Assembly (NCBI GenBank): GCA_009380005.1
Contig: WHSQ01000003.1
Coordinates: 11,224-75,223, forward strand
Source of the DNA: Actinomycetota bacterium
GTDB taxonomy: Bacteria > Actinomycetota > CADDZG01 > WHSQ01
Length of the DNA stretch: 64,000 nt
Reading direction: 5' to 3'
Shown piece by piece: positions 18,871 through 56,873 of this stretch. The notes below the pieces were generated by a model. It did no database searches, was not told the origin of the DNA, and worked only from the letters and a program-made list of their open reading frames with translations. Position 1 is the stretch's first letter. Every line of letters begins with the position of its first letter. A program made the position numbers and the translations under genes.

Positions 18871-18983
18871 CGTCACTCGCCCTCATGTCGCGGAAGTGCG
18901 GATCGGTATCGGATCCCGCCGGCGTCGAGGATACCTCCCGACGTTTCATCGGCAACTCGAACTACGATGGTAAAAATAGGCGG

Positions 18984-41786: not shown

Positions 41787-42530
41787 GTGGACCGCTCCGT
41801 TCCGTCGCTCGACATCCTGGGCGTGCCCGTGGCACTCCTGTCGCGCGCCGAGGCTCTCGATCGGATCCAGGAGCTCTACGAGGCGCCCGGCACGTCCTCG
41901 GTCGCCTACGCGAACGCCCACGCCCTGAACCTGGCGTTCGAGGACGTCGAGTACCACAAGGTCTTGAACGCGGCGGCCCTCGTGCTGAACGACGGCGCCG
42001 GAGTGGCGATGGCGGCTCGGATGAAGGGCGTGCGGTTCCCCGAGAACCTCAACGGCAGCGATCTGAACCCCTTGATCGTCGAGCGTGCCGCCACGCAGGG
42101 ATGGCCGGTGTACTTCCTGGGGGCCCGCGACGGGGTCGCCGAGCGGGCCGCGGCGGCGATGCGAAGTCGATACCCGGGTCTCCAGGTGGCGGGGGTCCAC
42201 CACGGGTTCTTCCCGGAGACGAGCTCCGGGACGGTCGCGGAGCTCGTCCGGACGTCGGGGGCCGGGCTGCTCATGGTGGCGATGGGGAACCCGCGTCAGG
42301 AGCTGTGGCTCGCCGAGCATCTGCCGGCCACGGGGGCGAGCGTCGGCATCGGGGTCGGGGCGTTCTTCGATTTCTCGGCCGGCGAGGTGCCGAGGGCGCC
42401 CGCGTGGATGAACCGCGCCGGCATCGAATGGGTGTACAGGCTCGGTCGGGAGCCACGGCGGCTCTTCCGTCGGTACATGGTCGGTAACCCGACCTTCGTC
42501 GTGCGAGCCTGGCGCGATCGCAAGGTTTAA
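41787..42530 (+). CDS. WecG/TagA/CpsF family glycosyltransferase
   Basis: 247-aa GT26 enzyme. Relatives add ManNAc or ManNAcA (TagA, WecG) to lipid-linked GlcNAc early in teichoic acid or enterobacterial common antigen synthesis. Motifs are YANAHALNLAFED, the catalytic-region LNDGAGVAMAARMKG, NLNGSDL, VYFLGARDGVAE and VGIGVGAFFDFSAGEVPRAP, ending with the basic WVYRLGREPRRLFRRY membrane-association segment. The GTG has GAAAGG 6 nt upstream. It is divergent from the sulfatase-like gene. It is strong support for a lipid-linked polymer with a teichoic-acid-like linkage unit. Confidence 0.9.
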   Translation: MDRSVPSLDILGVPVALLSRAEALDRIQELYEAPGTSSVAYANAHALNLAFEDVEYHKVLNAAALVLNDGAGVAMAARMKGVRFPENLNGSDLNPLIVERAATQGWPVYFLGARDGVAERAAAAMRSRYPGLQVAGVHHGFFPETSSGTVAELVRTSGAGLLMVAMGNPRQELWLAEHLPATGASVGIGVGAFFDFSAGEVPRAPAWMNRAGIEWVYRLGREPRRLFRRYMVGNPTFVVRAWRDRKV

Positions 42531-44200
42531 CCCTGTTCCCTGCGTGCGCAGGACAGAGCCTCCTCGAGCTGCTCGGGCGTCAACGCGGTCAGGTACAAAC
42601 GCTGGTTCCGTCGCGGTTCGAACCTGGGCCTCAGCTCGTTCGTCGGCGACAGGTTGTCGTGGATGCGGTAGTCGCGGATGTAGGCGGCGATGTCCTCGGC
42701 CGTGAGGTCTTCCTTACGCATCTCGTCCTCGTCCAACCATATGTAGTAGCCGCGGTTGGATTGGACGATCGAGCGCGCCGGAGTCACCTTGTCGAACCTT
42801 TCGCCAAGGTCCTTGGTCACCTCTCGCATCTCGATCGACCAGCCGTCGAGCACCCGGGCGTACGGCTGCATCCCGTGGTCGGCGGTGAACGCCAGTACGT
42901 AATTGTCCTTGCCCACGAGACGATCCAAGCCCTCGACGATCTTCGGGATCTGCCGGTCCTGCTCCCGTACGACGTCTCGCATCTCCGGCTCTTCCATGTT
43001 CCAGAGATGGCCGGCCAGATCGGCGCTCTTGTAGTTCGTGTAGAAGAGGTCGGGCATCTCGTCCGCACCGAACCTCTCGTTCCGCAGTATCTGGAACATC
43101 CGTTCCGTTTGGTAGATGGGCCATGCCGGACCGAACCGGATCTCGCCGGTGTAGGGAAGCAACTGGTTGCCGAGCCATTCGTCGTCGTCCTCACCGTCGC
43201 GCAGGTCGATCTCGTCGATGGCTTCCTGCAGGCCTTCTTCGTTTTCCAGGTACTCCGGCATGTAATAGAACGGCGTCCGAGTGCGGAAGTTCACGTCCCC
43301 GAGGTGGTCGAACACCCCCAGGTCTGCGTCGCCGCCTTCCAGCTGAGCACCATGGCCGATCATCCCGGCGTGCCATGAATCGCGAGCGAAAACGCCCACG
43401 ATCGGCTCGTTGTCGTTGGCTCTATCCCACATATCGCCCAGCGTCTGGCGCTCGAGGTACCGAGGTGAGAAGCCTTGCCACGAGTCGATCATCGATCCCT
43501 TGATCCTGATCTTCGTGTCCGGCATCCCGTGCTTGTTCGCGAAGTCTCCGGTGCCGATCGTTGCGTGCACCGTGGGGGTGATCGATGGGCTCGACCCCAC
43601 GGTGGCTTCGGTGTAGCTGGCGCTGCGATCCATGAGCTGTTGAAGCTCGGGCCACGCGTCCGGCCACCTTTCCAGCACGTTGTCCCCGCCGCCATCCCAG
43701 ACGAGGGTGAAGATCAGACGCGGCTTACCGTTCCGTTGGGCCTTGGGCAACAGGGCTTCCTCGAGGACGCGCCCATCCCTCTTGCCGAACTCATCGGTGA
43801 AGTCCAGGAGCTCGGCGAACGTCGGGGCGAGGTCGGCGACGGTCACCGGTCGGTCGAACGTCGTCCCCCCCTCGATGTAGCCGGGTCCGTAGAGGAACAG
43901 AGGCACCTCCTGGGTGTAGGGCCACGGAGTCGCGTGGCGGTTGCCGTAGATCGCGGGGAACTGCTCGATCGTGATGATGTCGCCGGAGCGGCCGGGGTAA
44001 TAGCCCCTCCACATCCGCTCGAGCAACTCGAGAGGCACGTCGCAGGCATCCACGTCCGCCACGAGCGAAGGATCGACCTCGGGGATATCGTCGTCTCTGA
44101 ACCAGACGACCGACGCCGTGCCCGCCACGGCCACGACCAGGGTGGCGGCGAGCGTCCGGCGCAGTCGGCGCGCACGGGTGATGCTCGTCGTGGGGTTCAG
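42527..44200 (-). CDS. Circularly permuted alkaline-phosphatase-superfamily phosphodiesterase-like protein C (CTG start likely)
   Basis: 557 aa from the proposed start, with an N-terminal membrane anchor (about 15-34). Rotated motif order as in proteins A and B: YYPGRSGDIITIEQFP, then H89 in NRHATPWPYTQEVPLFLYGPG and VTVADLAPTFAELL. D169 (LVWDGGGDN), SSPSITPTVHATIGTG, SADLAGHLWNM (D..H) and TADHGMQ follow. A near-perfect GGAGGG lies 6 nt before a CTG at 44200; no ATG, GTG or TTG sits at suitable spacing. An ATG at 44281 would overlap the divergent glycosyltransferase start. It overlaps the 3' end of the WecG-like gene by 4 nt. Confidence 0.8.
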   Translation of the reverse strand: MNPTTSITRARRLRRTLAATLVVAVAGTASVVWFRDDDIPEVDPSLVADVDACDVPLELLERMWRGYYPGRSGDIITIEQFPAIYGNRHATPWPYTQEVPLFLYGPGYIEGGTTFDRPVTVADLAPTFAELLDFTDEFGKRDGRVLEEALLPKAQRNGKPRLIFTLVWDGGGDNVLERWPDAWPELQQLMDRSASYTEATVGSSPSITPTVHATIGTGDFANKHGMPDTKIRIKGSMIDSWQGFSPRYLERQTLGDMWDRANDNEPIVGVFARDSWHAGMIGHGAQLEGGDADLGVFDHLGDVNFRTRTPFYYMPEYLENEEGLQEAIDEIDLRDGEDDDEWLGNQLLPYTGEIRFGPAWPIYQTERMFQILRNERFGADEMPDLFYTNYKSADLAGHLWNMEEPEMRDVVREQDRQIPKIVEGLDRLVGKDNYVLAFTADHGMQPYARVLDGWSIEMREVTKDLGERFDKVTPARSIVQSNRGYYIWLDEDEMRKEDLTAEDIAAYIRDYRIHDNLSPTNELRPRFEPRRNQRLYLTALTPEQLEEALSCARREQG

Positions 44201-44264
44201 TGGGGGCCCTCCAGCGGGGTAGGCGACCGTAGCGGGCAAGTATCCCAGTCCGGCGGGCAAACGG

Positions 44265-44270
44265 TAGCCT
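44265..44270 (+). promoter_or_regulatory. -10 element TAGCCT for leaderless transcription of the GT2 gene
   Basis: TAGCCT matches TANNNT and ends 9 nt before the ATG at 44280, so the transcript probably begins at or just before the start codon. No Shine-Dalgarno sequence is visible before this ATG, consistent with a leaderless message. Confidence 0.4.
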
Positions 44271-44279
44271 GCCTGTCGC

Positions 44280-45239
44280 ATGGCAGAACGAGCTACGGCG
44301 GCGTCGGCCTTCATCATCGCGACCCGCAACCGCCCCGAGGACCTGGTCCGCACGGTCGAGAGCCTCGTCGCACAGACGGTCCTCCCGTCCGAGTTGTGCA
44401 TCGTCGATTCGAGCGATGCGACACCCACGCGCCCGCGGATCGAGGAGTTGTGCTCGGGGGCCGGGATCGAGCTCGACTATCACCATCCCGCTCCCCGGGG
44501 CCTGACCATCCAGCGCAACGCCGGAGTGGATCGGACGGAGGGCGATCCGGTCTTCTTCGTCGACGACGACGTGTGGCTCGCCGACGATTGTCACGAGCGC
44601 ATCCTGGAGGAGTACGAGCGAGGGTGGCCGAACCTGGGCGGCGTCAGGGCCGCTCCCGTGCGCCCGGCGCGTCCGGCCTGGTACACGCGGTCGTTCCGCA
44701 AGCTGTTCGGCTTGGGCGGATGGTGGCCCGAGGCCAGCGGCAGGGTGCGGCCCGGGTTCTACGTCGAGGGGATCTCGGAATCGTTGGGACCTCGCCGCGT
44801 CGAGTACTTCAACGGCTGGTTCATGTCCTACGCGCGCGAGGTGTTCGAGCACGAGTGCTTCGATGAAGCGCTGGCAGGCTACGGTTTCAAGGAGGACATC
44901 GACTTCTCCTACCGCGTCGCGAAGCGCGGGTATACGTTGGTGCAGACGCCGAAGGCGAAGTGCGATCACCTGAAGAGTGCTTCGGCGCGCCTCGACTCCC
45001 ACAACCTGCAGCGCATGAACATGGCGAATCAGTTCTACCTTCACCGCAAGAACATGCCGCAGTCGACCAAGTACAAGGCGGCGTTGTGGTGGGCGTGGGT
45101 CGGGCTGTTCTTGCTGAACGCCGGCAAGGCCCTGCGCGTGCGCGATCCCGGCCTCGTGACGGGACTGGTCGAGGGCGCGTTCGAGCAGGCGCGCGGCAAG
45201 GGGCTCATCGATCCGCCGACGCAGGCGCCGAAGACTTGA
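44280..45239 (+). CDS. GT2 family glycosyltransferase
   Basis: 319-aa GT2 enzyme: AFIIATRNRPEDLVRTVESL start, CIVDSSDATP, GLTIQRNAGVDRT (nucleotide-sugar region) and the metal-binding FFVDDDVWLADD. The acceptor-side block GYGFKEDIDFSYRVAKRG is of the type seen in rhamnosyl- and galactosyl-transferases of surface glycans. A C-terminal hydrophobic stretch (AALWWAWVGLFLLNAG) may attach it to the membrane. Its stop overlaps the TTG of the CDP-alcohol phosphotransferase gene (TTGA), making a coupled trio with the following phosphodiesterase. Confidence 0.9.
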   Translation: MAERATAASAFIIATRNRPEDLVRTVESLVAQTVLPSELCIVDSSDATPTRPRIEELCSGAGIELDYHHPAPRGLTIQRNAGVDRTEGDPVFFVDDDVWLADDCHERILEEYERGWPNLGGVRAAPVRPARPAWYTRSFRKLFGLGGWWPEASGRVRPGFYVEGISESLGPRRVEYFNGWFMSYAREVFEHECFDEALAGYGFKEDIDFSYRVAKRGYTLVQTPKAKCDHLKSASARLDSHNLQRMNMANQFYLHRKNMPQSTKYKAALWWAWVGLFLLNAGKALRVRDPGLVTGLVEGAFEQARGKGLIDPPTQAPKT

Positions 45240-45961
45240 CCTTCGAGGCCGACGAGCGCGGGGCCAAGAAGCGCGACTACTGGTTCACCGTCCTGCTCGC
45301 CGATCCGCTGGCGACGCCGCTGGCGGGGCTGCTCGCGAAGCGGAGATGGTTGACCCCGGATCAGGTGACGATCCTGTCGCTGATCGCCGGGCTATCGGTC
45401 GGTTTCTTCTTCGCCGCTGGCGCGCGCTGGGGACTGATCGCTGGGGGAGTCGCGTTCTACGTCGCCTTCGTGCTGGATTGTACGGATGGAAAACTCGCCA
45501 GGGCGACCGGGGTCACTAGCGCCAAAGGCCGGGGCCTGGATGCGCTGGCGGACGGAGGACGACGAGCGAGTGCGATCTTGGGCCTGGGCATCCTCTACTG
45601 GCGGCTCTCGTCACAGGGTGATGGCCCTCATTCGGGTTTCGATCCCGCGACTCCTCTATGGGACCGCTTCGACGGATGGTTCTTGGACGGATTCCTCTTG
45701 CTGACCGTGTACGCGGTGCTGGCGTACTACTTCCTCGAGATCTCCGGCGCCGCTAAGGGCGACCCGGCCGGCGGCGTTCGAGGCAGATGGTCGCAGGCCC
45801 TCGCCAGGCACAGGCTTCTGCCGACCCCGGGCATGCCGGACGTGCAAGCCGTCGTCTTCATCTTCGGGCCGGTCACCGGGTTCGTGGTCCCGGCCCTGTA
45901 CGTCGCTATCGCGATGGTGTCGGTGGCTATCCTGCTGACCGTGATCAGGAGACTGCGGTGA
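45236..45961 (+). CDS. CDP-alcohol phosphatidyltransferase family protein
   Basis: 241-aa membrane enzyme. It moves a phospho-alcohol from a CDP-alcohol to another alcohol. The catalytic pattern D-x2-D-G-x2-A-R-x8-G-x3-D-x3-D is complete: DCTDGKLAR, eight residues, then GRGLDALAD. LTPDQVTILSL is the usual first-helix motif. Relatives include phosphatidylglycerol-phosphate, phosphatidylinositol-phosphate and di-inositol-phosphate synthases. A nucleotidyltransferase and a glycerol-1-phosphate dehydrogenase-like gene 8 kb away could supply a CDP-activated alcohol. The TTG start and GTGA overlap with the next gene show tight coupling. Confidence 0.88.
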   Translation: MTFEADERGAKKRDYWFTVLLADPLATPLAGLLAKRRWLTPDQVTILSLIAGLSVGFFFAAGARWGLIAGGVAFYVAFVLDCTDGKLARATGVTSAKGRGLDALADGGRRASAILGLGILYWRLSSQGDGPHSGFDPATPLWDRFDGWFLDGFLLLTVYAVLAYYFLEISGAAKGDPAGGVRGRWSQALARHRLLPTPGMPDVQAVVFIFGPVTGFVVPALYVAIAMVSVAILLTVIRRLR

Positions 45962-47574
45962 CGCAGACGAAGCCCCGCGTGTTGATGCTGGGCCTCGACG
46001 GCATGACCTACAACGTCCTGGAGCCGGCCTTCGACGCGGGGCACATGCCCAACCTCCGCGCGCTGATGGAGCGCAGCGCGTCCGGCGTGTTGACCTCCAC
46101 GGTGCCCCCCTACACGCCGCCGGGGTGGACCTCGATCTTCACCGGCGTCAATCCCGGCAAGCACGGGATCTTCGGCTTCACCCTGGGGAACCGGCAACGG
46201 CCCGGTGGTCTGGTTCGTCTCGACAAGGTGAAGGCGCCCGCGATCTGGAACGCGGCCAACCACCAGGGCGCGCGCATGGGCGTCTTCAACGTACCCATGA
46301 CCTATCCGGCCCCCGTCCTCGACGGATGGTCGGTCTCCGGGATGCTCACGCCGGAGGGCGGGGGGGCGACGCCCGAGAGCTTCACGTACCCGGCCGAGCT
46401 CGCGGCGGAGATCTCCGCGAGGGTGGGTGAATACCGCATCGACATCGACGTGGACTACGACAACGATTGGAAGTCCACCGACATCATCGAACGTCTGTCG
46501 CGCAACCTGGCACTCAAGCGGAAGGCTCTGGAGCTCCTGCTGGAAGCCGACGGTGATCTCCCGATCCTGTTCGCCGTGCTCGAAGCGCCCGATCGGTTGA
46601 TGCACGTCCACTACAAGTACATCGACCCCAAGCTCGAGCACTTCGATCGCGACGAAGCACGCCTCATCCGGGAGCGGGCGTGGAGCTTCTTCGACGAGAT
46701 GGACGCGGTCGTCGGTGACCTGATCGGCTGGGCGGGCTCGGACGGATACGTGGTCACGATGTCCGACCACGGCTTCGGGCCCAAGCACAAGACGGTCAAC
46801 GTCAACATGGCCCTGCGTGAGTGGGGTCTCCTCGCCGTCGGCGGCGCCGGAGCCGTCACGAAGTCCGCCGGGGTCCGGAGGATCGCACGGCGGGCCAAGA
46901 AGGCGCTGCCGAAGAGCGTCTGGAAGAGGGCCAAGTCGGTCGCGCAGGGCTCGATCGACTGGTCCCGCACGAAGGCCTTCTCGGCCCCCATCCCGCAGCA
47001 AGGGGTCTACGTGAACCTGAAGGGTCGCGAGCCGAACGGCATCGTCTCCCGATCTCACTACGAAGACGTGCGCAACGATGTGATCGCGGGCTTCGAGGCC
47101 CTCGTAGACCCGAGCGACGGCGGCAGCGTCACCGATCACGTTCACCGGCGCGAGGACGTCGTCTGGGGTCCCGAAGCGGAGCGGGCGCCCGACCTCTTCC
47201 CGGTCTGTCGCGCCTACTCCTACGAGCTCTCCGACGGCCTCTACTCTCCCGCGATCCTCGACGACTACCGAGCTCAGCCGCGCGGCTTCCATCAGATGGA
47301 CGGGATCTTCGGCCTCGCCGGCCCCGGCATCGCATCGGCCGAGGGACTCGTCGCGCGCATCTACGACATCGCACCCACGACGCTGTACCTGGCGGGCCTC
47401 GCGATCCCCGAGATGGACGGCCGGGTCATACCGGAGGCCGTCTCTCCCGACCGGGCTCCCGAGACCGAAGCCATGGACCTCTCGCTTCCCGGGGAGGGCT
47501 CGGCCGCCGCCGCGTACTCACCCGAGGAGGAGGCCCAGATCGAGGAGTCGCTGCGCAACCTCGGCTACCTCTAA
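45958..47574 (+). CDS. Type I phosphodiesterase/nucleotide pyrophosphatase-like AP-superfamily protein, LGYL tail (copy 1)
   Basis: 538 aa, in the ordinary (non-permuted) order: metal Asp in VLMLGLDGMTYN near residue 13, nucleophile region PPYTPPGWTSIFTGVNPGKHG, D..H in EAPDRLMHVHY and VTMSDHGFG. No signal peptide, so probably cytoplasmic. It ends in EESLRNLGYL. The family acts on phosphodiesters such as nucleotide sugars or glycerol-phosphate compounds; the substrate is unknown. It is a close paralogue of the protein at 51494, and its GTG overlaps the CDP-alcohol phosphotransferase stop, pointing to a shared CDP- or phospho-alcohol substrate. Confidence 0.87.
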   Translation: MTQTKPRVLMLGLDGMTYNVLEPAFDAGHMPNLRALMERSASGVLTSTVPPYTPPGWTSIFTGVNPGKHGIFGFTLGNRQRPGGLVRLDKVKAPAIWNAANHQGARMGVFNVPMTYPAPVLDGWSVSGMLTPEGGGATPESFTYPAELAAEISARVGEYRIDIDVDYDNDWKSTDIIERLSRNLALKRKALELLLEADGDLPILFAVLEAPDRLMHVHYKYIDPKLEHFDRDEARLIRERAWSFFDEMDAVVGDLIGWAGSDGYVVTMSDHGFGPKHKTVNVNMALREWGLLAVGGAGAVTKSAGVRRIARRAKKALPKSVWKRAKSVAQGSIDWSRTKAFSAPIPQQGVYVNLKGREPNGIVSRSHYEDVRNDVIAGFEALVDPSDGGSVTDHVHRREDVVWGPEAERAPDLFPVCRAYSYELSDGLYSPAILDDYRAQPRGFHQMDGIFGLAGPGIASAEGLVARIYDIAPTTLYLAGLAIPEMDGRVIPEAVSPDRAPETEAMDLSLPGEGSAAAAYSPEEEAQIEESLRNLGYL

Positions 47575-47601
47575 TGGGGTTCGTAACGGCCTATGGGAAG
47601 G

Positions 47602-47615
47602 TGACTTCTCAGTCA
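47602..47615. promoter_or_regulatory. TGACT-N4-AGTCA inverted repeat upstream of the CDF gene
   Basis: TGACT, four bases (TCTC), then AGTCA: the same 5-bp arms and spacing as the core of the repeat at 12791-12808. It lies in the 112-bp gap between the phosphodiesterase gene and the CDF transporter gene, about 70 bp before the latter. It could be a second operator for the same regulator or a chance match. Confidence 0.35.
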
Positions 47616-47686
47616 GCCGGAGGGTGAGGACCGAGTTACTTCGAGACCGCGAGCCTTAGTGCTGGTCGGGCGAATACCATCAGGGC

Positions 47687-48328
47687 ATGTCTCACACCGC
47701 GACCTGTTATCTCGATCCGGCACATACGCACGACGAGCCCGAGCTTGATGCTCGGACGCGGGAGGGGCTTCTCGCCGTCGGAGTTTCGCTGGCGATTCTG
47801 GGATTTACCGCGATCGCGCAGTTCCTGGTTTTTCTCGCTTCGGGGAGCGCGGCCCTGTTTGCTGACTTGGTCCATAACGTTGGCGATGCCCTCACCGCGG
47901 TTCCCGTAGGGCTGGCCTTCCTGCTCCGTTCACAACGAGCCGAACGATACGCAGGCTTGATGGTTGTCTTCGCCATCGCCGTGAGTGGTGTGGTCGCCGG
48001 GGGGGTCGCCGTAGATAAACTGATCAATGGGCACACCCCGGACCATCTTCTAGTTCTTGCGGTAGCAGGGGCCATAGGAGTGGTCGGCAATGGGATTGCC
48101 GCCCGGGTCCGAACACGAGCGGGCAAGAAGCTGAACAGTCCCGCATTGGTCGCCGATGGTCACCACGCGAAGGTCGACGCCGTGGTCAGTGGTGGCGTCG
48201 CGCTGAGCTCGGTCCTTGTGGGTGTGGGTTTGCCCATTGCCGACCCGCTGATCGCCTTGGCCATTACCGCGATGATAGGCCACATAACCTGGGAAGCCTG
48301 GAGGACCGTGCATGGTCACGGTCACTAG
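47687..48328 (+). CDS. Short cation diffusion facilitator (CDF) family transporter
   Basis: 213-aa membrane protein with about five to six segments. CDF site-A ligands are seen as H-x3-D in FADLVHNVGDA and again H-x3-D in ADGHHAKVDA, the usual Zn/Cd/Co-binding pattern of these metal/proton antiporters. It stops right after the last segment, so the cytoplasmic metal-sensing C-terminal domain is absent; a few His (CYLDPAHTHDE, HGHGH) sit at the ends. Codons are less GC-biased than neighbours (more T/A at third positions), hinting at later acquisition. A TGACT-N4-AGTCA element precedes it. Confidence 0.85.
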   Translation: MSHTATCYLDPAHTHDEPELDARTREGLLAVGVSLAILGFTAIAQFLVFLASGSAALFADLVHNVGDALTAVPVGLAFLLRSQRAERYAGLMVVFAIAVSGVVAGGVAVDKLINGHTPDHLLVLAVAGAIGVVGNGIAARVRTRAGKKLNSPALVADGHHAKVDAVVSGGVALSSVLVGVGLPIADPLIALAITAMIGHITWEAWRTVHGHGH

Positions 48329-48676
48329 GAGCTCTGCGAACGAACACCACAAGTCGTATCTAGCCCAGCTGAACTAGTTGGGGAAGAAGGAACGCATCCG
48401 TTTCCGGATCATCGTCTTGGCCGGCTGCTGAAGCTAGCCCGGCCAGTCCCTCCGCCACCGCCTCGTAACCGACCTTCCCTATCTGCCTCCCGGTCGACGA
48501 CTTGACGGCTAGGACGGTGGGATATCTAGCGCTCGCCGAACGCCGGGTGGTTCTACAGACTGCGCTACATGGGCAATCTCTGGGGCACTCGGCGGGTTTT
48601 ACGATGTCCGGGCGGGTATATGTGGCATCACCGCCCACACCGGAAGTGGGCCGGCTCTGGCAGGAAGGGGTGGCGC
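48329..48676. other. Intergenic stretch of unknown content
   Basis: 348 bp without a convincing gene. Composition is less GC-rich than the flanking genes, like the CDF gene before it. A minus-strand open frame (48360-48686) has a short block, GRQIGKVGYEAVAEGLAGL, that looks protein-like but matches nothing recognised; it may be a remnant of an older gene. The right end contains GGAAGGGG, the ribosome binding site of the next gene. Confidence 0.4.
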
Positions 48677-49117
48677 ATGACGACAACGCCTGTGACGAGC
48701 ACGACGGAAAAGACGCCCGGCCAGATGTTCGCCCTCGTCATCGGGGTCGTCTATCTGCTGGTGGGGATAGCCGGGTTCTTCGTGGCGGGCAGCTTCACCG
48801 GCGGGAGCGCCGACGACAAGCTGATCCTCTTCCCGATCAACCACCTCCACAACATCATCCATGTCGCGCTGGGCGTCGGATGGATCTGGGGATCGCGCAC
48901 GGTCGCAACGGCGAAGCAGATCAACACGTTGTTCGGGATAGTGCTCCTGGCCGTGGCCGTCTTGGGCTTCGTCGTGCCGGACTTCATGCAGGACCTGATC
49001 AACGTCCAGAGCGCTGGCGACGCCGACAACTTCTTGCACCTCGTCACCGGAGCCCTGGGCCTCTACTTCGGAACCGCGGGGGCGGGGGACCGCATCAGAA
49101 CCGGGACGACCTCGTAG
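48677..49117 (+). CDS. DUF4383 domain membrane protein, copy 1
   Basis: 146-aa protein with four hydrophobic segments of the DUF4383 family (function unknown), common in actinobacteria. Family hallmarks are the first helix (ALVIGVVYLLVGIAGFF), INHLHNIIHVALGVGWIWGS with its conserved N-x2-H-N-x2-H, and a last helix with HLVTGALGLYFG. The ATG has GGAAGGGG upstream. The next gene is a second copy. No catalytic residues are evident; the histidines between helices could bind haem or metal, but that is speculative. Confidence 0.85.
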   Translation: MTTTPVTSTTEKTPGQMFALVIGVVYLLVGIAGFFVAGSFTGGSADDKLILFPINHLHNIIHVALGVGWIWGSRTVATAKQINTLFGIVLLAVAVLGFVVPDFMQDLINVQSAGDADNFLHLVTGALGLYFGTAGAGDRIRTGTTS

Positions 49118-49200
49118 CCGGAGCTCGGCTCGAGACCGTCGATGGCCCCGCTCCGGTGGAGCCCTTCTCGCCTCCCAGGGACGGTTAGAGTGCGGCCGCA

Positions 49201-49617
49201 ATGGCGGTCAGGGTCCACGACAGAACACCGGCACAGGGTTTCGCCTTCGCTTTCGGCGTCGCCTATCTCGCGGTGGGGATCCTGGGGTTCGCCCTGACCG
49301 GCTGGGATCGTTTCTTCGGCGACACGGGCGAGAAGCTCGTCATCTTCGAGCTCAATCCGTTCCACAATGTCGTTCACCTGCTCCTCGGGGGCGTCTGGCT
49401 CGTAGCCTCGGACGACCACTACAGGGCCAGGACGGTGAACCTCGCCTTCGGGGCCGCCTATGCCCTGGTGGGGCTGCTCGGGGTGTTCGGCCTCCTGGAC
49501 TCGATCCTCAGCACGAACTCGGCCGACCACGGCCTCCACTTCGTGAGCGCGGCGCTCGCGCTTTACTTCGGGACCTTCGGTGCGGAGTTCCCGCAGATGG
49601 CGCAGGAAGATATCTAG
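49201..49617 (+). CDS. DUF4383 domain membrane protein, copy 2
   Basis: 138-aa tandem paralogue of the preceding gene, with the same four-helix plan: FAFGVAYLAVGILGFAL, LNPFHNVVHLLLGGVWLVAS (the N-x2-H-N-x2-H motif kept) and FVSAALALYFGTFG. ATG start with no strong ribosome-binding site. The 3' end overlaps the convergent ACT-domain gene by 4 nt. Function unknown. Confidence 0.85.
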   Translation: MAVRVHDRTPAQGFAFAFGVAYLAVGILGFALTGWDRFFGDTGEKLVIFELNPFHNVVHLLLGGVWLVASDDHYRARTVNLAFGAAYALVGLLGVFGLLDSILSTNSADHGLHFVSAALALYFGTFGAEFPQMAQEDI

Positions 49618-49991
49618 GCGCGCCCGGCGCTCTCGAGGTCGTCGACGGCGAAGATGATCTCGGTCTCTCCGTTGCCGCGTCTCCCCAGGTACGCGGAGGA
49701 GATCACGACGCCTGCATCGGTCAATCTCCTGCAGTAGCGGCCGAGCTCGCCGGGCCGGTCGTCGAGCGTCGCGGCCATCACCGGACGCACCCCGTCGACC
49801 TTGAAGCCGTTCGCCGACAAGACCTCTCCGGCCTCCTCGCCGTCGTCGACGACCAGATGAACGACCCCGCGGCCGTCGAAGGTGGTCGCCGCGAGGGTCT
49901 CGATGTTGACGCGGTTGGCGCCCAATAGCTCACCGATATCGGCCAGGACCCCGGCTCGATCGTCGACGATGACGGTGATCTCTTCGAGCAT
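49614..49991 (-). CDS. Tandem ACT domain protein
   Basis: 125 aa made of two ACT domains: first ITVIVDDRAGVLADIGELLG (about 5-65), second AATLDDRPGELGRYCRRLTD (about 73-120). ACT pairs bind amino acids or other small ligands and regulate metabolic enzymes; no catalytic domain is attached, so it is probably a stand-alone ligand-sensing protein. It is the last gene of the minus-strand run from 59907, 22 nt after the sugar-phosphate transferase gene. Partner and ligand are unknown. Confidence 0.85.
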   Translation of the reverse strand: MLEEITVIVDDRAGVLADIGELLGANRVNIETLAATTFDGRGVVHLVVDDGEEAGEVLSANGFKVDGVRPVMAATLDDRPGELGRYCRRLTDAGVVISSAYLGRRGNGETEIIFAVDDLESAGRA

Positions 49992-50013
49992 GGTCGAACA
50001 TTACTCCGGTTGG

Positions 50014-51477
50014 TCAGTGCGCGCCTTCGCCCGAGACCACCGCTCGGAACGTTCGCCACAGGATCCAGAGGTCCAGGGAGAGCGACCAGTTCTGGATGTA
50101 GAACAGGTCGAATCGGACGTAGTCCGAGAAGGACGTTTCGGCTCGTCCGCTAACCTGCCAGAGCCCCGTCATCCCCGGTTTCACGTTGAGCCGGTTGCGA
50201 ACCCAGTGGTCGTACTGCTCGACCTCGGAGGGAAGGGCAGGCCGCGGCCCCACGAGGCTCATCTCCCCCCGGAACACGTTGATCAGCTGGGGAAGCTCGT
50301 CCAGCGAATAGCGGCGCAGGAAGCGCCCGGCCCCCGTGACGCGGGGGTCCTCCTTGAGCTTGAAGAGCAGGCCCGGGCCCTCCGACTGCGCCTCCAGCTC
50401 GGCCCGCTTATCCTCCGCGTCTCTCACCATCGTCCGGAACTTCCAGACGACGAACGGCTCGCCGTCCCGGCTCACTCTCACCTGCCGGAAGTAGACGGGA
50501 CCCTCGGAGTCCCGCTTGATCCACAGCGAGAAGACGGCGAACACGGGGGAGAGCAGCACCAGTCCCAGCGTCGAACCGAGCAGGTCGATGGCTCGTTTCA
50601 GGGCGCGCTGGAACGGGTTGATACCGGAACGCCGCACGTACAGCAACGGGATGCCCGCCACCGACTGCACGATCACCCGCGAAGCGAGCAGGTCCATGGT
50701 CCCGGACGTGATCTGCAGATCGACGTCGGCGTCCTGCAACTCCCAGAACAACCGGTTCAGCCGGCCGGCGTCGAACGCCGACGCCGCGACCAGCACGAGG
50801 CCCACGTGGTGCCGGCGGATCAGGTCCTCGAGGTCCTGGGTCGAGCCCAGCACCTTCTTGTCTCCGACGACTTCCTGCCCGGGTTGTACCTCGTCGTCGA
50901 CGAAGCCAACGATCCGGTACCCGAGCCAACCCTCCCGTTCCAGCGTTCGAACCATCGTCCGCGCTTCCTGGTTGGCGCCCAACACGATCGTGCTCGTGGT
51001 GTCTCCGCCACGACGTCGCAGGAAATGCAGGATCTTGCGGACGAGGAGGCGCTCGCCGCCGACGATCACCAGGCCCGACCCGAGAGCCAGCAAGCCCCAA
51101 CCGCGCGCGAGGTCGCCTCCGAACAACTTCAGCGCGTCCGCGACGAAGATCGTGATGGTCCCGGCCACGACGCCGTTGAACACCTGTTTGAACTCGTTGA
51201 CGGGCCCCAACACCTGGCGGGGCTCGTACAGGCCGTACAGCCAGAAGAGCAGCAGCCACACGGGGGTGGCTACCAGCGCGATCATGCCGTAGTCGACGCC
51301 CCGAGCCGGCGAGCCCGGCATGAGCTCGAACCGGACGATGGAGGCCACGAAGAGCGCTGCCGACACCGCCAGGCCGTCGGCCAGGACCCGGAGCGCGATC
51401 CGCTTGAAGCTGCGACGCGCCGCGGGCGTGCGAGTGGGCTGCGAGGAGGGCTCGAGCGAGCGAGCCGGTTCGGCCAT
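50014..51477 (-). CDS. Polyprenyl-phosphate sugar phosphotransferase (WcaJ/WbaP-like)
   Basis: 487-aa initiating enzyme that puts a hexose-1-phosphate on undecaprenyl/polyprenyl phosphate to start a surface polysaccharide. Four to five N-terminal membrane segments, a Rossmann-like CoA-binding-type region (about 140-270) and the C-terminal bacterial sugar transferase domain are all present. Motifs are KRAIDLLGSTLGLVLLSP, VWKFRTMVRDAE, RRYSLDELPQLINVFRGEMS and LVGPRPALPSEV. It is a full-length member. Together with Wzx- and Wzy-like genes at 35857-39138 it gives a complete lipid-linked assembly line. Confidence 0.92.
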   Translation of the reverse strand: MAEPARSLEPSSQPTRTPAARRSFKRIALRVLADGLAVSAALFVASIVRFELMPGSPARGVDYGMIALVATPVWLLLFWLYGLYEPRQVLGPVNEFKQVFNGVVAGTITIFVADALKLFGGDLARGWGLLALGSGLVIVGGERLLVRKILHFLRRRGGDTTSTIVLGANQEARTMVRTLEREGWLGYRIVGFVDDEVQPGQEVVGDKKVLGSTQDLEDLIRRHHVGLVLVAASAFDAGRLNRLFWELQDADVDLQITSGTMDLLASRVIVQSVAGIPLLYVRRSGINPFQRALKRAIDLLGSTLGLVLLSPVFAVFSLWIKRDSEGPVYFRQVRVSRDGEPFVVWKFRTMVRDAEDKRAELEAQSEGPGLLFKLKEDPRVTGAGRFLRRYSLDELPQLINVFRGEMSLVGPRPALPSEVEQYDHWVRNRLNVKPGMTGLWQVSGRAETSFSDYVRFDLFYIQNWSLSLDLWILWRTFRAVVSGEGAH

Positions 51478-51493
51478 GGCTGGAATCTTAGGC

Positions 51494-53101
51494 CTAGAGA
51501 TAGCCGAGGCCCCGTAGGGCGTCTTCTATCTGTTCCTCCTCTTCGGCGGAGTAGGGAGAGTCCTCGCCGTCCCCCGAGCGGGCCGGAGGTTCCGTCCACG
51601 TGATCGGGTTCGCATCGAGGTGGGAGGGAGAGAACGCGCCCCTCAGCACCTCGCCGTCGAGGCCCGTCGGTACGTCCAGGCCCGCCTGGTAGAGGAGCGT
51701 CGGGGTCACGTCCATCACGGTTCCTTCGATGCGCCCGCCGGCCTCGACGCCCGCGCCGGCGACGATCACGATCCCGTCCGGGTGATGGACGCCGCGGGGG
51801 AGGTCGGCGACGTTGGTGAAGCGCTCGTGGTGGAAGATCTCGTCGTCGAGCTCGTAGGTGTGATCGCGCAGCACCGGGAAGAGGTCGGGCGCGCGCTCCA
51901 GCTCCGATCCGCTCAACACGTCCTCGCGCTTGTGCACGACGTCGGTGACTGGCTTCCCATCCGGCCCCCGCAGTTCTTCGAAGCGCGCTATCAACTCGTC
52001 ACGGACGGCGTCGATCTCGGCGGCCTCGACGATGCCGAATCGTTCGCGACCCTTCACGTTCACATGCACGCCCTGCTGGGGGATGTTGGAGGCGAACGCT
52101 CTGGTGCGCGACCAATCGATCGCCTTGAACGTGTGCCCCTTCGCCTGCCGGGCGATGCGCCGCGACAACACGCGCTTAGCGACCGGCACCATCGCCCGCG
52201 CGAGCTTCGTCCGCATCAGGCGCGCCGTCGGCCTGGTGCGCATGTATCCCCACTCCGCCAACAGCGCGTTGGTGCGAACCGTGACCAGCCACGCGGTGAA
52301 GCCGTGATCCGAGCACACGATCGCACCTCCGTCCGGGCCGGCCCAGTCGCCCAGCAGGCCTACGACGCGATCGAGCGCGGCGAAGCACGTCTCTACCTCC
52401 GGCCGGATCCGCTTCGCAGCCGCGGTGTCGTAGAGCTCGTCCGAGGGATCCAGGTAGCGGTAGTAGACGTGCTGCAGCCGGTCGGGGGCCTCCATCACCG
52501 AGAACACGACGTCGACGGGGTCGTCCTGCAACAGTCGCTCCAGGACGACGTATCGCTGTTCTATCGACGCCAACCCCCGCCGGCAGAGCTCGGCGTCGCG
52601 CCAGTCGGTCTCGTAGTTGGCGCTCAGGTCGATCACGTAACCGGGAGCCCACCGTTCGATCCGCTGCGTCAGCTCCGCGGGGTACGCGAACCCGCGCTGC
52701 CGTTCGCCGAAGCCGGGGGTCATCATCCCCGCGACCATCCAACCGTCCACGGGCTGAGGGGGATACGTCAGCGGGATGTTGTAGGCGCCGACGCGCACCC
52801 CTTGCGCACGGGTCATGTCCCACAACGTCGGGGCCTTCACCTTCCCCGCGTGCATCAGCTCCACGGGTTCGTCCTGGATGTTCCCGAACTGGAACCCATA
52901 GATGCCGTGCCGGCCCGGGTTGACGCCGGTGACGGCCGAGGTCCACGCCGGTGGCGTGTAGGTCGGGACCGTGGAGCGCAACGTCCCCCATGCTCCCCGG
53001 TCCCGCAGGGCTGCGAGACGAGGCATGACTCCGGCCTCGATCAGCGGATCGATCAGGTGCCAGGCGGCCCCGTCGAGGCCGATCACCGCCGCCCTAGCCA
53101 T
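51494..53101 (-). CDS. Type I phosphodiesterase/nucleotide pyrophosphatase-like AP-superfamily protein, LGYL tail (copy 2)
   Basis: 535 aa, ordinary motif order: AAVIGLDGAAWH near residue 5, PTYTPPAWTSAVTGVNPGRHG, EAPDRLQHVYY (D..H) and IVCSDHGFT. No signal peptide. Ends in EDALRGLGYL. Paralogue of the protein at 45958 with the same length and block order, including SRTRAFASNIPQQGVHVN against SRTKAFSAPIPQQGVYVN. The ATG overlaps the glycerol-1-phosphate dehydrogenase-like gene by 8 nt, so the pair is translationally coupled, while the other copy is coupled to a CDP-alcohol phosphotransferase. Substrate probably a phospho-alcohol diester; inferred only. Confidence 0.87.
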   Translation of the reverse strand: MARAAVIGLDGAAWHLIDPLIEAGVMPRLAALRDRGAWGTLRSTVPTYTPPAWTSAVTGVNPGRHGIYGFQFGNIQDEPVELMHAGKVKAPTLWDMTRAQGVRVGAYNIPLTYPPQPVDGWMVAGMMTPGFGERQRGFAYPAELTQRIERWAPGYVIDLSANYETDWRDAELCRRGLASIEQRYVVLERLLQDDPVDVVFSVMEAPDRLQHVYYRYLDPSDELYDTAAAKRIRPEVETCFAALDRVVGLLGDWAGPDGGAIVCSDHGFTAWLVTVRTNALLAEWGYMRTRPTARLMRTKLARAMVPVAKRVLSRRIARQAKGHTFKAIDWSRTRAFASNIPQQGVHVNVKGRERFGIVEAAEIDAVRDELIARFEELRGPDGKPVTDVVHKREDVLSGSELERAPDLFPVLRDHTYELDDEIFHHERFTNVADLPRGVHHPDGIVIVAGAGVEAGGRIEGTVMDVTPTLLYQAGLDVPTGLDGEVLRGAFSPSHLDANPITWTEPPARSGDGEDSPYSAEEEEQIEDALRGLGYL

Positions 53102-54125
53102 CGGCGAACGCGTCCTTGATCAGGGCGCGGGCCCCGGCTTCATCCAGGTCCGAGTGCTCGAGGACCGTGAAGCGACCGGGCCGTGTATCCGGAGCGTGCA
53201 GGACGACCCTCACGAGATCATCTTCATCGAGGCCGAGATCGCTCGGTGCACTGGGCAGTCCGATCGCCCGGAGCCGGCCGCGCAGCTCCGCGACGTCGTC
53301 GCCGTAGAGCGCCGCGGAGATGATGCAACCGAAGGCCACCTGTTCGCCGTGGAGTGCCCGGCCCCCGTACAACTCGTCGATGGCGTGGGAGATCTCGTGC
53401 TCCCCGCCGGACGCCGGGCGCGAGCTGTGAGCGTGGATCATCGCCATCCCCGACAGCACCAAGCCGTCGGCGAGTCTCGGCAGGATCTCGAGTCGCGCCC
53501 CGAGGTTCGCGTTCTCGATGATGTCCTGGACGAGCTCGTACGCCTGCACCGAGAGGTCCCACGAGCGATCGTCGGTGTCTTCGAGTCCTCGTTCCGCCGC
53601 CAGCTTCCAATCCCGCAACGCGTAGGGGTTGGCGAGCAGGTCGCCGAGCCCGGCGCGCAGGGAGGCCTCGGGGGCACCGAGCAAGGTCGGCATCGACAGG
53701 AACAACGCCGCCGGCATGATGGCGCCCACGCTTTCGGGCCGGCCTTCGTGGTCGGGGACGACCGCGATCGGGGAGCAGATCCCGTCGTGGGAGAGCTGGG
53801 TGGGGACGCTGACGATGGCGATGCCGGCTCGCGCCGCGGCGAGCTTGCCGACGTCCAGGGTCCTTCCGCCCCCGATCGCGACGATGGCATCGGCTCCGCC
53901 TCGTCGAGCCGCCGACCCCAGGGCAGAAGACCAGTCCTGGTTCGCGCCCTCGGATACGGGACGGCTGTCGAGGGCGTCGTCGATCCCGGACGCCAGCGTC
54001 TTTCCATGCGTGCCGACCAACAGCAGCGGCGACGAGATGTTCAGGGAACCCAGGCTCTCTGCGAGCCGGGACGCGGCGATCGTCTCGTCGCCCTCCGTGA
54101 ACGTGAATACCCGAGGTTGATCCAA
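53094..54125 (-). CDS. egsA: sn-Glycerol-1-phosphate dehydrogenase-like protein (EgsA/AraM family)
   Basis: 343-aa member of the iron-alcohol-dehydrogenase-like superfamily. G1P dehydrogenase reduces dihydroxyacetone phosphate to sn-glycerol-1-phosphate, the archaeal lipid backbone stereoisomer, also made by Bacillus AraM. The NAD(P) site is IVAIGGGRTLDVGK. The family hallmark QLSHDGICSPIAV carries the first metal Asp, SRPASGGEHEISHAID the first metal His and ALHGEQVAFG the second. TTG start at 54125, just after the nucleotidyltransferase stop. Homologues can act on other phospho- or phosphono-aldehydes, so G1P is likely but not certain. Confidence 0.83.
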   Translation of the reverse strand: MDQPRVFTFTEGDETIAASRLAESLGSLNISSPLLLVGTHGKTLASGIDDALDSRPVSEGANQDWSSALGSAARRGGADAIVAIGGGRTLDVGKLAAARAGIAIVSVPTQLSHDGICSPIAVVPDHEGRPESVGAIMPAALFLSMPTLLGAPEASLRAGLGDLLANPYALRDWKLAAERGLEDTDDRSWDLSVQAYELVQDIIENANLGARLEILPRLADGLVLSGMAMIHAHSSRPASGGEHEISHAIDELYGGRALHGEQVAFGCIISAALYGDDVAELRGRLRAIGLPSAPSDLGLDEDDLVRVVLHAPDTRPGRFTVLEHSDLDEAGARALIKDAFADG

Positions 54126-54129
54126 GCCG

Positions 54130-54882
54130 CTAGACGGCCGCCTGCGGGCGGACCCACGCGTCTTCGTGCCGCCGCACCACCGCGGCGGCGACCTCCATGT
54201 CCGACCAAACGTCGACCTCCGCGTACTCCCCAGGCTCCACGAATGCGGCTCGAGCATCGATGCGATCGAGGATGCGGCCGTAGACGTCTTCGTAGTAGAG
54301 GTCCGTATCCGCACGCCATTCCAGGGCCGTGGATCCGTCCAGATACGCTCGGGCGGCCGCAGGCCGGACCAGAGAGACGCCGTCGTACTCACCGTGGCCG
54401 TGCGCCCGCTTCAAAGACTTGCCGATGTCCATCACGCGCCGGCCCTGGAGCCGCACGCGCATGTCTTCTTGGTCGAGGTCGTCCCTGCGTTCAACCGCCA
54501 GGACCAGATCGCCCTCGGTCTCGAGCACGCGGTTGAAAACGTCGGGGTGGATGACTACGTCGCAGTTGACGACCAAGACGTCGGAGCCGGGGGCCTGGTC
54601 GAGCCCCATGCGCAGCGAATGGAAGTTCCCCCACGAGGCGAATCGTGCGTTGAAGATGAACTGAGCCTCACCGTCCCAGTGCTCGTTCACGTACTCCTGG
54701 ATCGCGGCGGGTTTGTATCCGGTGATGACCATGAGGTCGTCGATCCCCGCCTTCTTCAACCCCACCATCAGATAGTGAAGAAGCGGTTCGTTGCCGCGCA
54801 CCGGGATGAGGGTCTTGGGCTGATCGCCGCCGATACGCACCCCGCGCCCAGCCGCAAGGATCACCGCCTTCACGTTCGCCAC
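54130..54882 (-). CDS. Nucleotidyltransferase of the sugar/alcohol-phosphate cytidylyl type
   Basis: 250-aa NTP-transferase: NVKAVILAAGRGVRIGGDQP with the downstream K of PKTLIPV, DLMVITGYKP, LVVNCDVVIHPDVF (metal Asp) and a C-terminal EYAEVDVWSDMEVA strand. Nearest in style to enzymes that make CDP-inositol, CDP-choline or nucleotide-alditols rather than large hexose pyrophosphorylases. GTG 54882 is preferred (GGAGG 4 nt upstream); GTG 54873 is possible. Directly upstream of the G1P dehydrogenase-like gene, it is well placed to activate glycerol-1-phosphate (for example as CDP-glycerol) for the CDP-alcohol phosphotransferase at 45236. Confidence 0.85.
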   Translation of the reverse strand: MANVKAVILAAGRGVRIGGDQPKTLIPVRGNEPLLHYLMVGLKKAGIDDLMVITGYKPAAIQEYVNEHWDGEAQFIFNARFASWGNFHSLRMGLDQAPGSDVLVVNCDVVIHPDVFNRVLETEGDLVLAVERRDDLDQEDMRVRLQGRRVMDIGKSLKRAHGHGEYDGVSLVRPAAARAYLDGSTALEWRADTDLYYEDVYGRILDRIDARAAFVEPGEYAEVDVWSDMEVAAAVVRRHEDAWVRPQAAV

Positions 54883-56873
54883 GAAACCTCCAGAACGAGA
54901 TCGCTCTTCAATCTTTGTTCGAACAACATCACCCGGCCATCCCGGCGCCATCCCGGAGCCTTCACGTTACGGGCCCCGTCGGGCAGGTGGAAGCGCACGA
55001 TCAGGTCGTCGGGCCGTACCTTCGGCTGCCACTGGATCGCCAGACGGTAAACGCTGCGATCGCCGATGGTTCTGATCGCCCCCGGTACGAGGTAGTCGAA
55101 GCCTAGCGAACCCGTCTGGTTGGGGGCGATCTGCAAGGTACCGCTCCAGACCTTGGCTCCGCGTTCCCGGTGCTCGGATGGCCTTCCTCCGGCCCACACC
55201 GCCGGAGACGGCGTCTCCAGACGCCCCGAGCGGAACTGGGCGGGAGACCACGCGTTGAGGCCCTGCACCACCCGCGGGGCCGTGGCCGATAGGAGGCGAG
55301 CATCGGGCCGGACGTACACGTTCACCATCGGCCGGTGCCGCGATTTCGAGTCGCCCATCGACCAGCGCGGCTGGGGCAGGAAGACCCCGTTGTGGACGGA
55401 TACCTCCGTCGAGACCCGTGCGTTCGACGCGTCGGGCCTGACGTCCATCTGGTAGGTGTGCTGCTGGAAGTAGTCGAGCTTGTTCCCGCCGACGTTCTGC
55501 TCGACGACGTAGAGATAGTCCGACCTCTCCGGAACATCGATCGCGCCGTCCCAGTTCATCTCCTCGACGAAGCGTTGTTCGGCCGGATCGGTCAGCCACA
55601 GCAACATGTGCTTGCTCCCCAACGCGTTACCCGCGCCCGAGACCAGCCGGGAGGGGTGGCGGGGATCGAACAGTCGCTCGTAGAACCCGTCGACGATCTG
55701 GCGCAGGACCGCTCGACGGTGGCCGGGGATCGGGTAGCGCGCGTAGGCCTTGTACAGGAGGAAGTGCAGTACCCGGCGCGCTTTCATCACGTGTCCGGCT
55801 GGTATCCGGTACTTCCCGGCCGCGGGCATCAGCTCCTTCATCGTGACGGGATCGACGCCGATCACTCCGTCGATGCGATCGGGGAAGGGAACCCCGAACT
55901 CATCGGCCGAAGCCCGTCCGTAGCGGACCGTGAGCTGGGCGCTGAGCGGCCAGTCCGGAGACCAGTTCGCATTGCCGAAACGCTGAGCGTCGGGGATCTC
56001 ACGCACGTACCAGGCGTCCCGCGGGATGGGGATGTCGACGGTCCGCCGGTCGGTGTCGACGTTGTAGATCGAGCCGGTCTCGTCGAGCTCCAATCTCCCG
56101 TCGGTAGCCGTCAGGTACGCCATCTGCAACATCGCGCCGCCGGTACCGCGCAGCTCGGCCGGGTTCTGCATCCCGAGCAGGTAGGTGCGGCGGCCGTCTG
56201 CTCCGAGGAAGCCCGGAAGCACGTCGAGACCGTCGCGGGCCTGTCCCAGCACGACCTGGGTCTCTTCCGCCTGCCGGATGGAGCGTCGCACGTTGCTGTG
56301 GAACCGCGCCGGAAGGTTCGTTAGTTTCACGTCCTGGAGCCGGTTCGCGGCACGATCGAGCAGGCTCATGATCTCGATCACCTCTGCCCGGAGCTCGTCG
56401 ATCTCGTCGATCACGATGCGGGATCCGTCCTCCGATCTCTCGATGATCGGACTCCGCGGGCCCAGGCTGTCCTGCGCAAGCCGGATGCTTCGCTGCGCCG
56501 CCCCCGTAGCGGCCTCTCCCGCGACGAGCAGGTCGGGCAACTCCAGGGTCAAGCCCCGAAGCTTCGGAAGTGCCAGGGCCAGATCGAATATCGGCGCACC
56601 CCACCTGTGACCGTCGGAAGCGCGACGAGCGGCCGCCACGGCAGCGTTCGCCTCGGCGTGGGCCCGATCGCCGGCCTCGGTCGATCGTCGATTCAGGGGG
56701 GCGTTGAGCTCGGTTCGGAAAGCACGCTCCATCTCTCGCAGATGCGAGCGGGCGCCCAGCAGTCCGGTGGCCACGCGGACGGGACCTGCGAGCATCACTA
56801 TCCACGTGAGTGCGCCCAGGGCGGTCAGGAAGAATGCGGCCGTCCCCAGGCCCGTGCCGGGGCGAGACGCCAC
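54870..56873 (-). CDS. DUF4012 domain membrane-anchored protein
   Basis: 667 aa. One N-terminal membrane segment (about 10-30) precedes a long helical region (about 45-200) and the DUF4012 core with TYLLGMQNPAELRGTGGAML and RIDGVIGVDPVTMKELM. A C-terminal beta-rich part follows. DUF4012 proteins recur in actinobacterial exopolysaccharide loci; some relatives resemble LytR-CpsA-Psr attachment enzymes in context, but activity is not established. It overlaps the downstream nucleotidyltransferase start by 13 nt and begins 3 nt after the LLM gene, so it belongs to the same transcript. Probably extracytoplasmic. Confidence 0.85.
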   Translation of the reverse strand: MASRPGTGLGTAAFFLTALGALTWIVMLAGPVRVATGLLGARSHLREMERAFRTELNAPLNRRSTEAGDRAHAEANAAVAAARRASDGHRWGAPIFDLALALPKLRGLTLELPDLLVAGEAATGAAQRSIRLAQDSLGPRSPIIERSEDGSRIVIDEIDELRAEVIEIMSLLDRAANRLQDVKLTNLPARFHSNVRRSIRQAEETQVVLGQARDGLDVLPGFLGADGRRTYLLGMQNPAELRGTGGAMLQMAYLTATDGRLELDETGSIYNVDTDRRTVDIPIPRDAWYVREIPDAQRFGNANWSPDWPLSAQLTVRYGRASADEFGVPFPDRIDGVIGVDPVTMKELMPAAGKYRIPAGHVMKARRVLHFLLYKAYARYPIPGHRRAVLRQIVDGFYERLFDPRHPSRLVSGAGNALGSKHMLLWLTDPAEQRFVEEMNWDGAIDVPERSDYLYVVEQNVGGNKLDYFQQHTYQMDVRPDASNARVSTEVSVHNGVFLPQPRWSMGDSKSRHRPMVNVYVRPDARLLSATAPRVVQGLNAWSPAQFRSGRLETPSPAVWAGGRPSEHRERGAKVWSGTLQIAPNQTGSLGFDYLVPGAIRTIGDRSVYRLAIQWQPKVRPDDLIVRFHLPDGARNVKAPGWRRDGRVMLFEQRLKSDLVLEVSWRT

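Follow-up and report, generated by a model that had tools for sequence, protein, structure and literature searches.

The locus described here lies in a 64,000-nucleotide stretch of the genome of an uncultured member of the Actinomycetota, termed the window, which corresponds to positions 11224–75223 of contig C333 (WHSQ01000003.1) in a 3.8 Mb assembly of 639 contigs. Its minus strand carries a run of genes that encode, in order, a DUF4012 protein (54870–56873), a nucleotidyltransferase (NTase; 54130–54882), a glycerol-1-phosphate dehydrogenase (G1PDH)-like enzyme of the EgsA/AraM type (53094–54125), a protein with the type I phosphodiesterase/nucleotide pyrophosphatase fold (phosphodiesterase 2; 51494–53101; PF01663, 125 bits) and a sugar transferase (50014–51477), with overlaps or gaps of 4–16 bases. 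A plus-strand run comprises a GT2 glycosyltransferase (44280–45239; PF00535), a cytidine diphosphate (CDP)-alcohol phosphotransferase (CDP-OH-PT; 45236–45961) and phosphodiesterase 1 (45958–47574; PF01663, 106 bits). These genes are joined by start/stop overlaps: the TTG start of the CDP-OH-PT gene sits on the GT2 stop, and phosphodiesterase 1 in turn has a GTG start that overlaps the CDP-OH-PT stop. A first-pass annotation had placed all four gene types here, with the adjacent dehydrogenase and NTase genes coupled to the phosphodiesterase gene at 51494, and the phosphodiesterase gene at 45958 coupled to a CDP-OH-PT with a complete motif; gene calls and family scans agreed with it on each of these points. 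For the dehydrogenase, the TTG start at 54125 was preferred over a longer open reading frame (ORF) reaching 54392 because the starts of orthologues lie near this point. An alternative GTG start of the NTase is possible at 54873.

The best Protein Data Bank (PDB) matches of the dehydrogenase were archaeal G1P dehydrogenases (4rfl, 4rgq and 5fb3; 1.7e-34), with which it has the stretch SRPASGxEH in common. Glycerol dehydrogenases matched at 3e-15 or weaker, except 3ce9, which is annotated as a glycerol dehydrogenase yet clusters with archaeal G1PDHs in our tree. The motifs AGLGD, SGGEH and LHGEQ are conserved, and the invariant residues D162, H243 and H259 align with those of 4rfl and 5fb3; the aspartate and two histidines of AGxGD, SGxEH and LHGxQ are the metal ligands of G1PDH. 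In the tree, the clade of the window's family had modest support (79/82) and joined Acidimicrobiales-type copies (96/98), with GldA-like sequences separated by a very long branch. This placement, which the first-pass annotation had named as a check, sets the dehydrogenase apart from glycerol dehydrogenases, and the PDB match strengths and the tree together led us to reject a glycerol dehydrogenase identity. From its sequence, the enzyme probably reduces dihydroxyacetone phosphate (DHAP) to sn-glycerol-1-phosphate (G1P).

Related genes occur elsewhere in the family. The window's genome has a very similar pair of second iron alcohol dehydrogenase-type genes (L026 and L029, on contigs C49 and C626 of G000), whose proteins carry a SRRPIGAGSEHLF or SPSPLGAGGEHLF stretch and are divergent from both G1PDH and GldA. 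A second G1PDH-like gene in another family genome (G005; L045, 9163–10822) is 40% identical to that of the window and overlaps a CDP-OH-PT gene of its own, with no NTase adjacent.

By sequence and predicted fold, the NTase is a LicC/IPCT/PntC-type cytidylyltransferase, and we propose that it acts as a cytidine triphosphate (CTP):glycerol-1-phosphate cytidylyltransferase. LicC was its best profile match (3.9e-25), followed by PntC and IPCT, and the nearest folds to its AlphaFold2 model (pLDDT, the predicted local distance difference test score, of 91) were LicC and IPCT, with IPCT-DIPPS. LicC, IPCT and IPCT-DIPPS, its nearest relatives, are cytidylyltransferases for small alcohol phosphates. 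Arg16, Lys23, Asp108, Lys155 and Glu222-x-Asp224 are invariant in 38 G1PDH-linked NTases; Tde-PntC requires R15, K25 and K153 (PMC6697681). The CDP-OH-PT, a candidate CDP-glycerol phosphoglyceroltransferase, belongs to Pfam family PF01066 (42.8 bits) and has the complete motif D81-x2-D84-G85-x2-A88-R89-x8-G98-x3-D102-x3-D106 (residues 81–106), which is invariant in alignment A3. Its nearest profile match was AF2299 (4o6m; 1.6e-19), then IPCT-DIPPS (4mnd). A simple hydropathy scan, by which all membrane segments and signal peptides in this study were judged, gave four clear membrane segments, against about six helices expected of the class.

Since IPCT-DIPPS is near both proteins, the NTase and CDP-OH-PT look like a split IPCT-DIPPS, that is, a pair that would make and use a CDP-alcohol. 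In Archaeoglobus, Thermotoga and Thermococcales, IPCT-DIPPS, one of the closest relatives of both proteins with a solved structure, likewise combines a LicC-fold NTase and a CDP-OH-PT with a soluble CDP-alcohol donor. However, its substrate is supplied by inositol-phosphate synthase and its product is a soluble solute, whereas the window's module has a G1PDH, separate genes and a surface-glycan setting. The product could accordingly be imagined as a soluble phosphodiester, for instance glycero-phospho-inositol, formed in the manner of di-myo-inositol phosphate, and the resemblance to the two halves of IPCT-DIPPS and the presence of an inositol-1-phosphate synthase in the window's genome would favor it. 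The synthase gene occurs in 14 of 16 sampled genomes of the window's family, but in the window's genome it is on a different contig from the module, which makes inositol less likely as a linked substrate. With the synthase unlinked and glycan genes linked, we regard a soluble product as improbable.

We sampled 16 genomes of the window's family, eight other genomes of its class and 396 Actinomycetota genomes. G1PDH was found in 15 of the 16 family genomes, the missing one being 81% complete, and was absent from all eight other genomes of the class. Where contigs allowed, the order DUF4012-NTase-G1PDH-phosphodiesterase 2-sugar transferase-ACT was kept in the family with a few small rearrangements, and GT2-CDP-OH-PT-phosphodiesterase 1 lay close to it. 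The statement that G1P is rare in bacteria needs qualifying, since a G1PDH of this kind (E of 1e-20 or better) was present in 44 of the 396 Actinomycetota genomes (about 11%). With the NTase of G065, a distant genome, as the query, we found an NTase in 32 of the same 396 genomes, and 28 of these also had G1PDH; the sole match in the window's genome was the window's NTase. Outside the window's family, G1PDH was present in 20 of the 24 NTase genomes (Fisher 1e-22, with same-genus genomes not being independent), and both genes occurred together in eight families. Chance does not explain the arrangement: family genomes keep its order and coupling, and the link between NTase and G1PDH is found repeatedly across the phylum.

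In profile searches of fetched neighbourhoods, the window's orthologous set aside, 20 distinct loci had G1PDH, NTase and CDP-OH-PT together, and five further ones (L067, L069, L090, L094 and L101) had two of the three types. The 4.3 kb contig of L085 had the transferase and G1PDH only; G1PDH was isolated or divergent in L092, L104 and L106, and L068, L103, L105 and L107 end near contig edges. Gene order and strand vary among loci, which points to a common function of the genes and not simply to inheritance of a single operon. For example, L091, in a genome of 7.8 Mb, carries CDP-OH-PT, NTase, G1PDH, a second CDP-OH-PT, GT2 and TagGH-like genes, and L102 has GT2, CDP-OH-PT, G1PDH, NTase and TagHG-like genes; a GT2 gene adjoins the module in both, and in L086 as well. 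In L091, from a Streptomyces-like genome (6–10 Mb genomes of one genus, with a neighbourhood matching the one listed for Streptomyces in PMC13118837), the upstream CDP-OH-PT (6950–8809) is fused to a DUF5941 domain.

Linkage also bears on the fate of G1P. Discussion of bacterial G1PDHs has usually centred on the lipid divide and on lipids like those of archaea. Feeding of G1P into archaeal-type ether lipids or heptaprenylglyceryl phosphate, as by AraM and PcrB in Bacillus, would account for a G1PDH homologue, but would leave the link to the NTase unexplained; the module shares a bacterial G1PDH with that system, whereas its partner is a cytidylyltransferase instead of PcrB. Searches for PcrB/GGGPS gave no match in the window's genome and partial matches over 47–65 positions in only three of the 16 family genomes. 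With the enzyme not found in the window's genome, archaeal lipids by this route were rejected, and we give the ether-lipid explanation very little credence. GpsA is present in the window's genome, so that G1P is not needed there for ordinary phospholipids. It should be noted that GpsA (PF07479) was not found in five family genomes that are 89–98% complete (G002, G010, G011, G012 and G015); the G1PDHs of G010, G011, G012 and G015 cluster with that of the window in the tree. Each of the five encodes a full-length GlpK, in G002, G010 and G011 on the same contig as a CDP-OH-PT.

The four genomes with the NTase and no G1PDH (G027, G046, G177 and G319) carry NTase and CDP-OH-PT beside a class V aminotransferase (loci L129, L130, L131 and L132), for which the best model was 2-aminoethylphosphonate aminotransferase (230–312 bits; cut-off 361). 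These loci, from other Actinomycetota, appear to hold a variant of the module that is of phosphonate type. The occurrence of the NTase/CDP-OH-PT pair with different substrate makers suggests a swappable activate-and-transfer unit, in which the neighbouring gene points to the substrate. The two NTase classes differ as follows: Asn stands at position 106 in 38/38 NTases linked to G1PDH, against Asp in 4/4 linked to the transaminase; position 86 is Asn versus Thr, and position 141 is Met versus Ile/Val. The residues aligned with position 106 are Asp105 in LicC and Glu104 in PntC, whose side chains are near the amine end of the substrate (PMC6697681). CpgD, which makes CDP-glycerate, holds glycerate with Asn90 and Asn110 (PMC13228409). 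Together, the NTase residues fit a neutral polyol phosphate; alone, they do not name glycerol.

The Pnt pathway of phosphonate tailoring, with the dehydrogenase acting on a phosphonate, was considered in this light. PntC is among the relatives of the NTase, and the four transaminase-linked loci would favor such a pathway, but the residue 106 class of the window's NTase differs from theirs. Phosphoenolpyruvate mutase had no match above the cut-off in the 16 family genomes (24 of 319 bits in the window's genome), and on this result phosphonate synthesis was rejected for the window's organism; the Pnt explanation seems most unlikely to us. The Pnt (phosphonate) and Lic (phosphocholine) systems resemble the module in using LicC-type activation with cytidine monophosphate (CMP) to add a small head group to glycans or lipids (PMC6697681). 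They differ in that the module lacks a phosphoenolpyruvate mutase over the cut-off, has Asn rather than Asp/Glu at the amine-contact position, and has a CDP-OH-PT as transferase.

The genes surrounding the module form, as judged from their family matches, a Wzx/Wzy-type polysaccharide region with Wzy_C, Wzx, sulfotransferase, sulfatase, WecG/TagA-type glycosyltransferase, GT2, sugar transferase and DUF4012 genes. The sugar transferase is a predicted polyprenyl-phosphate sugar-1-phosphate transferase, an initiating enzyme (TIGR03025, 428 bits, above the cut-off), and the DUF4012 protein (PF13196), first in its run in a family-wide order, has one transmembrane-like segment and is predicted to be membrane-anchored. 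On the plus strand are a WecG/TagA/CpsF-family glycosyltransferase gene (41790–42530; PF03808, 204 bits; TIGR00696 above the cut-off), a Wzx-like polysaccharide flippase gene (37555–39138; PF01943) and an ORF extending over 34381–37554 with a Wzy_C/O-antigen ligase domain in its 3' part (residues 830–974; PF04932). A minus-strand gene (42527–44428) encodes a PafA-like protein of the alkaline phosphatase superfamily (PF01663; NF042991, 85.7 bits, under the cut-off) with an N-terminal transmembrane-like segment.

Such surroundings could also mean that the substrate activated by the NTase is a sugar-1-phosphate destined for the polysaccharide, with G1PDH and the transferase serving separate tasks. 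In favor are the position of the NTase gene within that region and its weak matches to many models of sugar-1-phosphate NTases. However, the NTase is recurrently linked with G1PDH and CDP-OH-PT, and the LicC-type E-x-D occurs in 38/38 G1PDH-linked NTases, in contrast to D-x-G in the sugar-type NTase of L086. Action on inositol or a sugar phosphate had been named by the first-pass annotation as an outcome that would count against its pathway; the inositol-phosphate synthase gene, as noted, is not on the module's contig, and the window's NTase has E-x-D, not the D-x-G of this one aligning comparator. We judge the sugar explanation to be a poor prospect.

A lipid acceptor deserves more weight. 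The sn-1 form of CDP-glycerol could react with diacylglycerol by a Kennedy-type route to give phosphatidylglycerol or a related lipid. Choline/ethanolamine phosphotransferases, which use diacylglycerol, are CDP-OH-PTs and appear lower in the profile matches; an inositol-lipid cluster with an NTase and a CDP-OH-PT has been proposed as an alternative in Bacteroidetes (PMC9246714), and an sn-1 phosphoglycerol head group is normal in phosphatidylglycerol (PMC7086022). On the other hand, three other CDP-OH-PT genes of the window's genome are available for phospholipids, and the module adjoins glycan genes in several lineages. Transfer to diacylglycerol is thus unlikely, although it is the alternative we take most seriously.

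Given what was observed of these genes, namely their presence and coupling, the class of their folds and motifs, and their co-occurrence, we consider it probable that the module makes and spends G1P, in the form of a CDP-glycerol donor of phosphoglycerol for a surface glycan. The dehydrogenase would convert DHAP to G1P, the NTase would convert G1P and CTP to the sn-1 form of CDP-glycerol, and the membrane-embedded CDP-OH-PT would transfer phosphoglycerol to a hydroxyl group on a surface glycan that is lipid-linked or still growing. The neighbouring sugar transferase, GT2 and WecG-type enzymes may assemble this glycan, and the Wzx/Wzy-type proteins may handle it, a task that may fall to TagGH-like exporters in other lineages. 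We infer the steps from DHAP to CDP-glycerol from family membership and linkage, and transfer to a glycan, rather than to diacylglycerol or a soluble polyol, from the glycan-gene neighbours.

Several points weigh against this reading. The activity and product of the module, and likewise the acceptor, are predicted ones. The dehydrogenase scored 219.7 bits with NF002022, below the curated cut-off of 413, and is therefore named G1PDH-like here, as a label by similarity that claims no full membership; two other actinobacterial copies also fell under the cut-off (246.6 in a Streptomyces-like genome, 262.4 in L046). The NTase-G1PDH run and the CDP-OH-PT gene lie 7–8 kb apart on opposite strands in the window. 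Asn90/Asn110 of CpgD and Asn86/Asn106 of the NTase have the same 20-residue spacing, a match by spacing and not by alignment, and LicC and Thermotoga IPCT likewise have Asn at 86. The sugar-type NTase of L086 has Asn at 106 while carrying D-x-G instead of E-x-D, so that Asn106 is better evidence against an amine than for glycerol, and its use as proof of glycerol is weakened. Because the G1PDH-linked NTases are mutually related, 38/38 Asn106 does not amount to 38 independent events.

As in the proposed route, the TagD/TagF system of wall teichoic acid uses a CDP-glycerol donor for a wall polymer bearing glycerol phosphate. TagD has another fold than the LicC type and uses sn-glycerol-3-phosphate. 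The difference in fold has been remarked upon (PMC13228409), and sn-1 phosphoglycerol would have the stereochemistry of lipoteichoic acid, not that of wall teichoic acid (PMC7086022). A TagF-type teichoic acid was rejected, as the TagB/TagF-family glycerophosphotransferase (PF04464) was found in none of the 16 family genomes. Another related system is the phosphoglycerate cytidylyltransferase CpgD of Caulobacter, with a LicC-related fold, a three-carbon phosphate as substrate and two Asn residues that hold glycerate (PMC13228409, PMC12275187); its substrate is 2-phosphoglycerate for a sphingolipid, and our comparison is by description and spacing. A Streptomyces neighbourhood described in 2026 combines CDP-alcohol phosphatidyltransferase, GT2, tagG, tagH, araM and sugar-phosphate nucleotidyltransferase genes in one conserved region (PMC13118837); the portions of that paper which deal with it give it as synteny around orphan clusters and propose no G1P activation pathway. 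We found no prior proposal of a pathway joining G1PDH to CDP-OH-PT, NTase and CDP-glycerol in open-licence full texts, although subscription journals could hold one, and no demonstration in the open-licence literature, for any bacterium, of G1P activation for attachment to the cell surface.

We put forward tentatively, as a possibility somewhat short of an even chance, that the same pathway operates across many Actinomycetota lineages, including Streptomyces-like ones: cytosolic G1P and its CDP form would place sn-1 phosphoglycerol of lipoteichoic-type stereochemistry on an envelope glycan, by a CDP-glycerol route unrelated to TagD/TagF. If G1PDH in Actinomycetota mostly feeds opposite-hand CDP-glycerol for envelope glycans, there would be a simple reason for the wide scatter of bacterial G1PDHs and a second origin of CDP-glycerol, and an unassigned Streptomyces gene neighbourhood would become testable by ordinary knock-outs.

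The first-pass annotation had proposed a similar sequence from G1P through CDP-activated glycerol to transfer, with phosphodiesterases turning over the product. The first part is supported as an inference by the recurrence of the three enzyme types together in a glycan setting, and the co-occurrence it had suggested examining holds for the dehydrogenase, NTase and CDP-OH-PT, but not for the phosphodiesterases, of which the module loci tested beyond the window's family yielded no homologue. The two phosphodiesterases are paralogues, as that annotation had noted (44% identical), and neither has a signal peptide or membrane segment in the hydropathy scan. Without a hydrophobic N-terminus they are predicted to be cytosolic. 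Their role as extracellular turnover enzymes was rejected on these two grounds, and a local role appears more likely than turnover of an exported product. The nearest folds to phosphodiesterase 2 were in the broad NPP/phosphonoacetate hydrolase group, with low TM-scores of about 0.5. Phosphodiesterase/sulfatase-superfamily genes are apparently crowded in the window (17506–18876, 32119–33807, 40455–41687, 42527–44428, 45958–47574 and 51494–53101), the ORF at 17506–18876 being placed among them by its sequence. The sulfatase gene at 40455–41687 is 3 bases from the sulfotransferase gene at 39552–40451.

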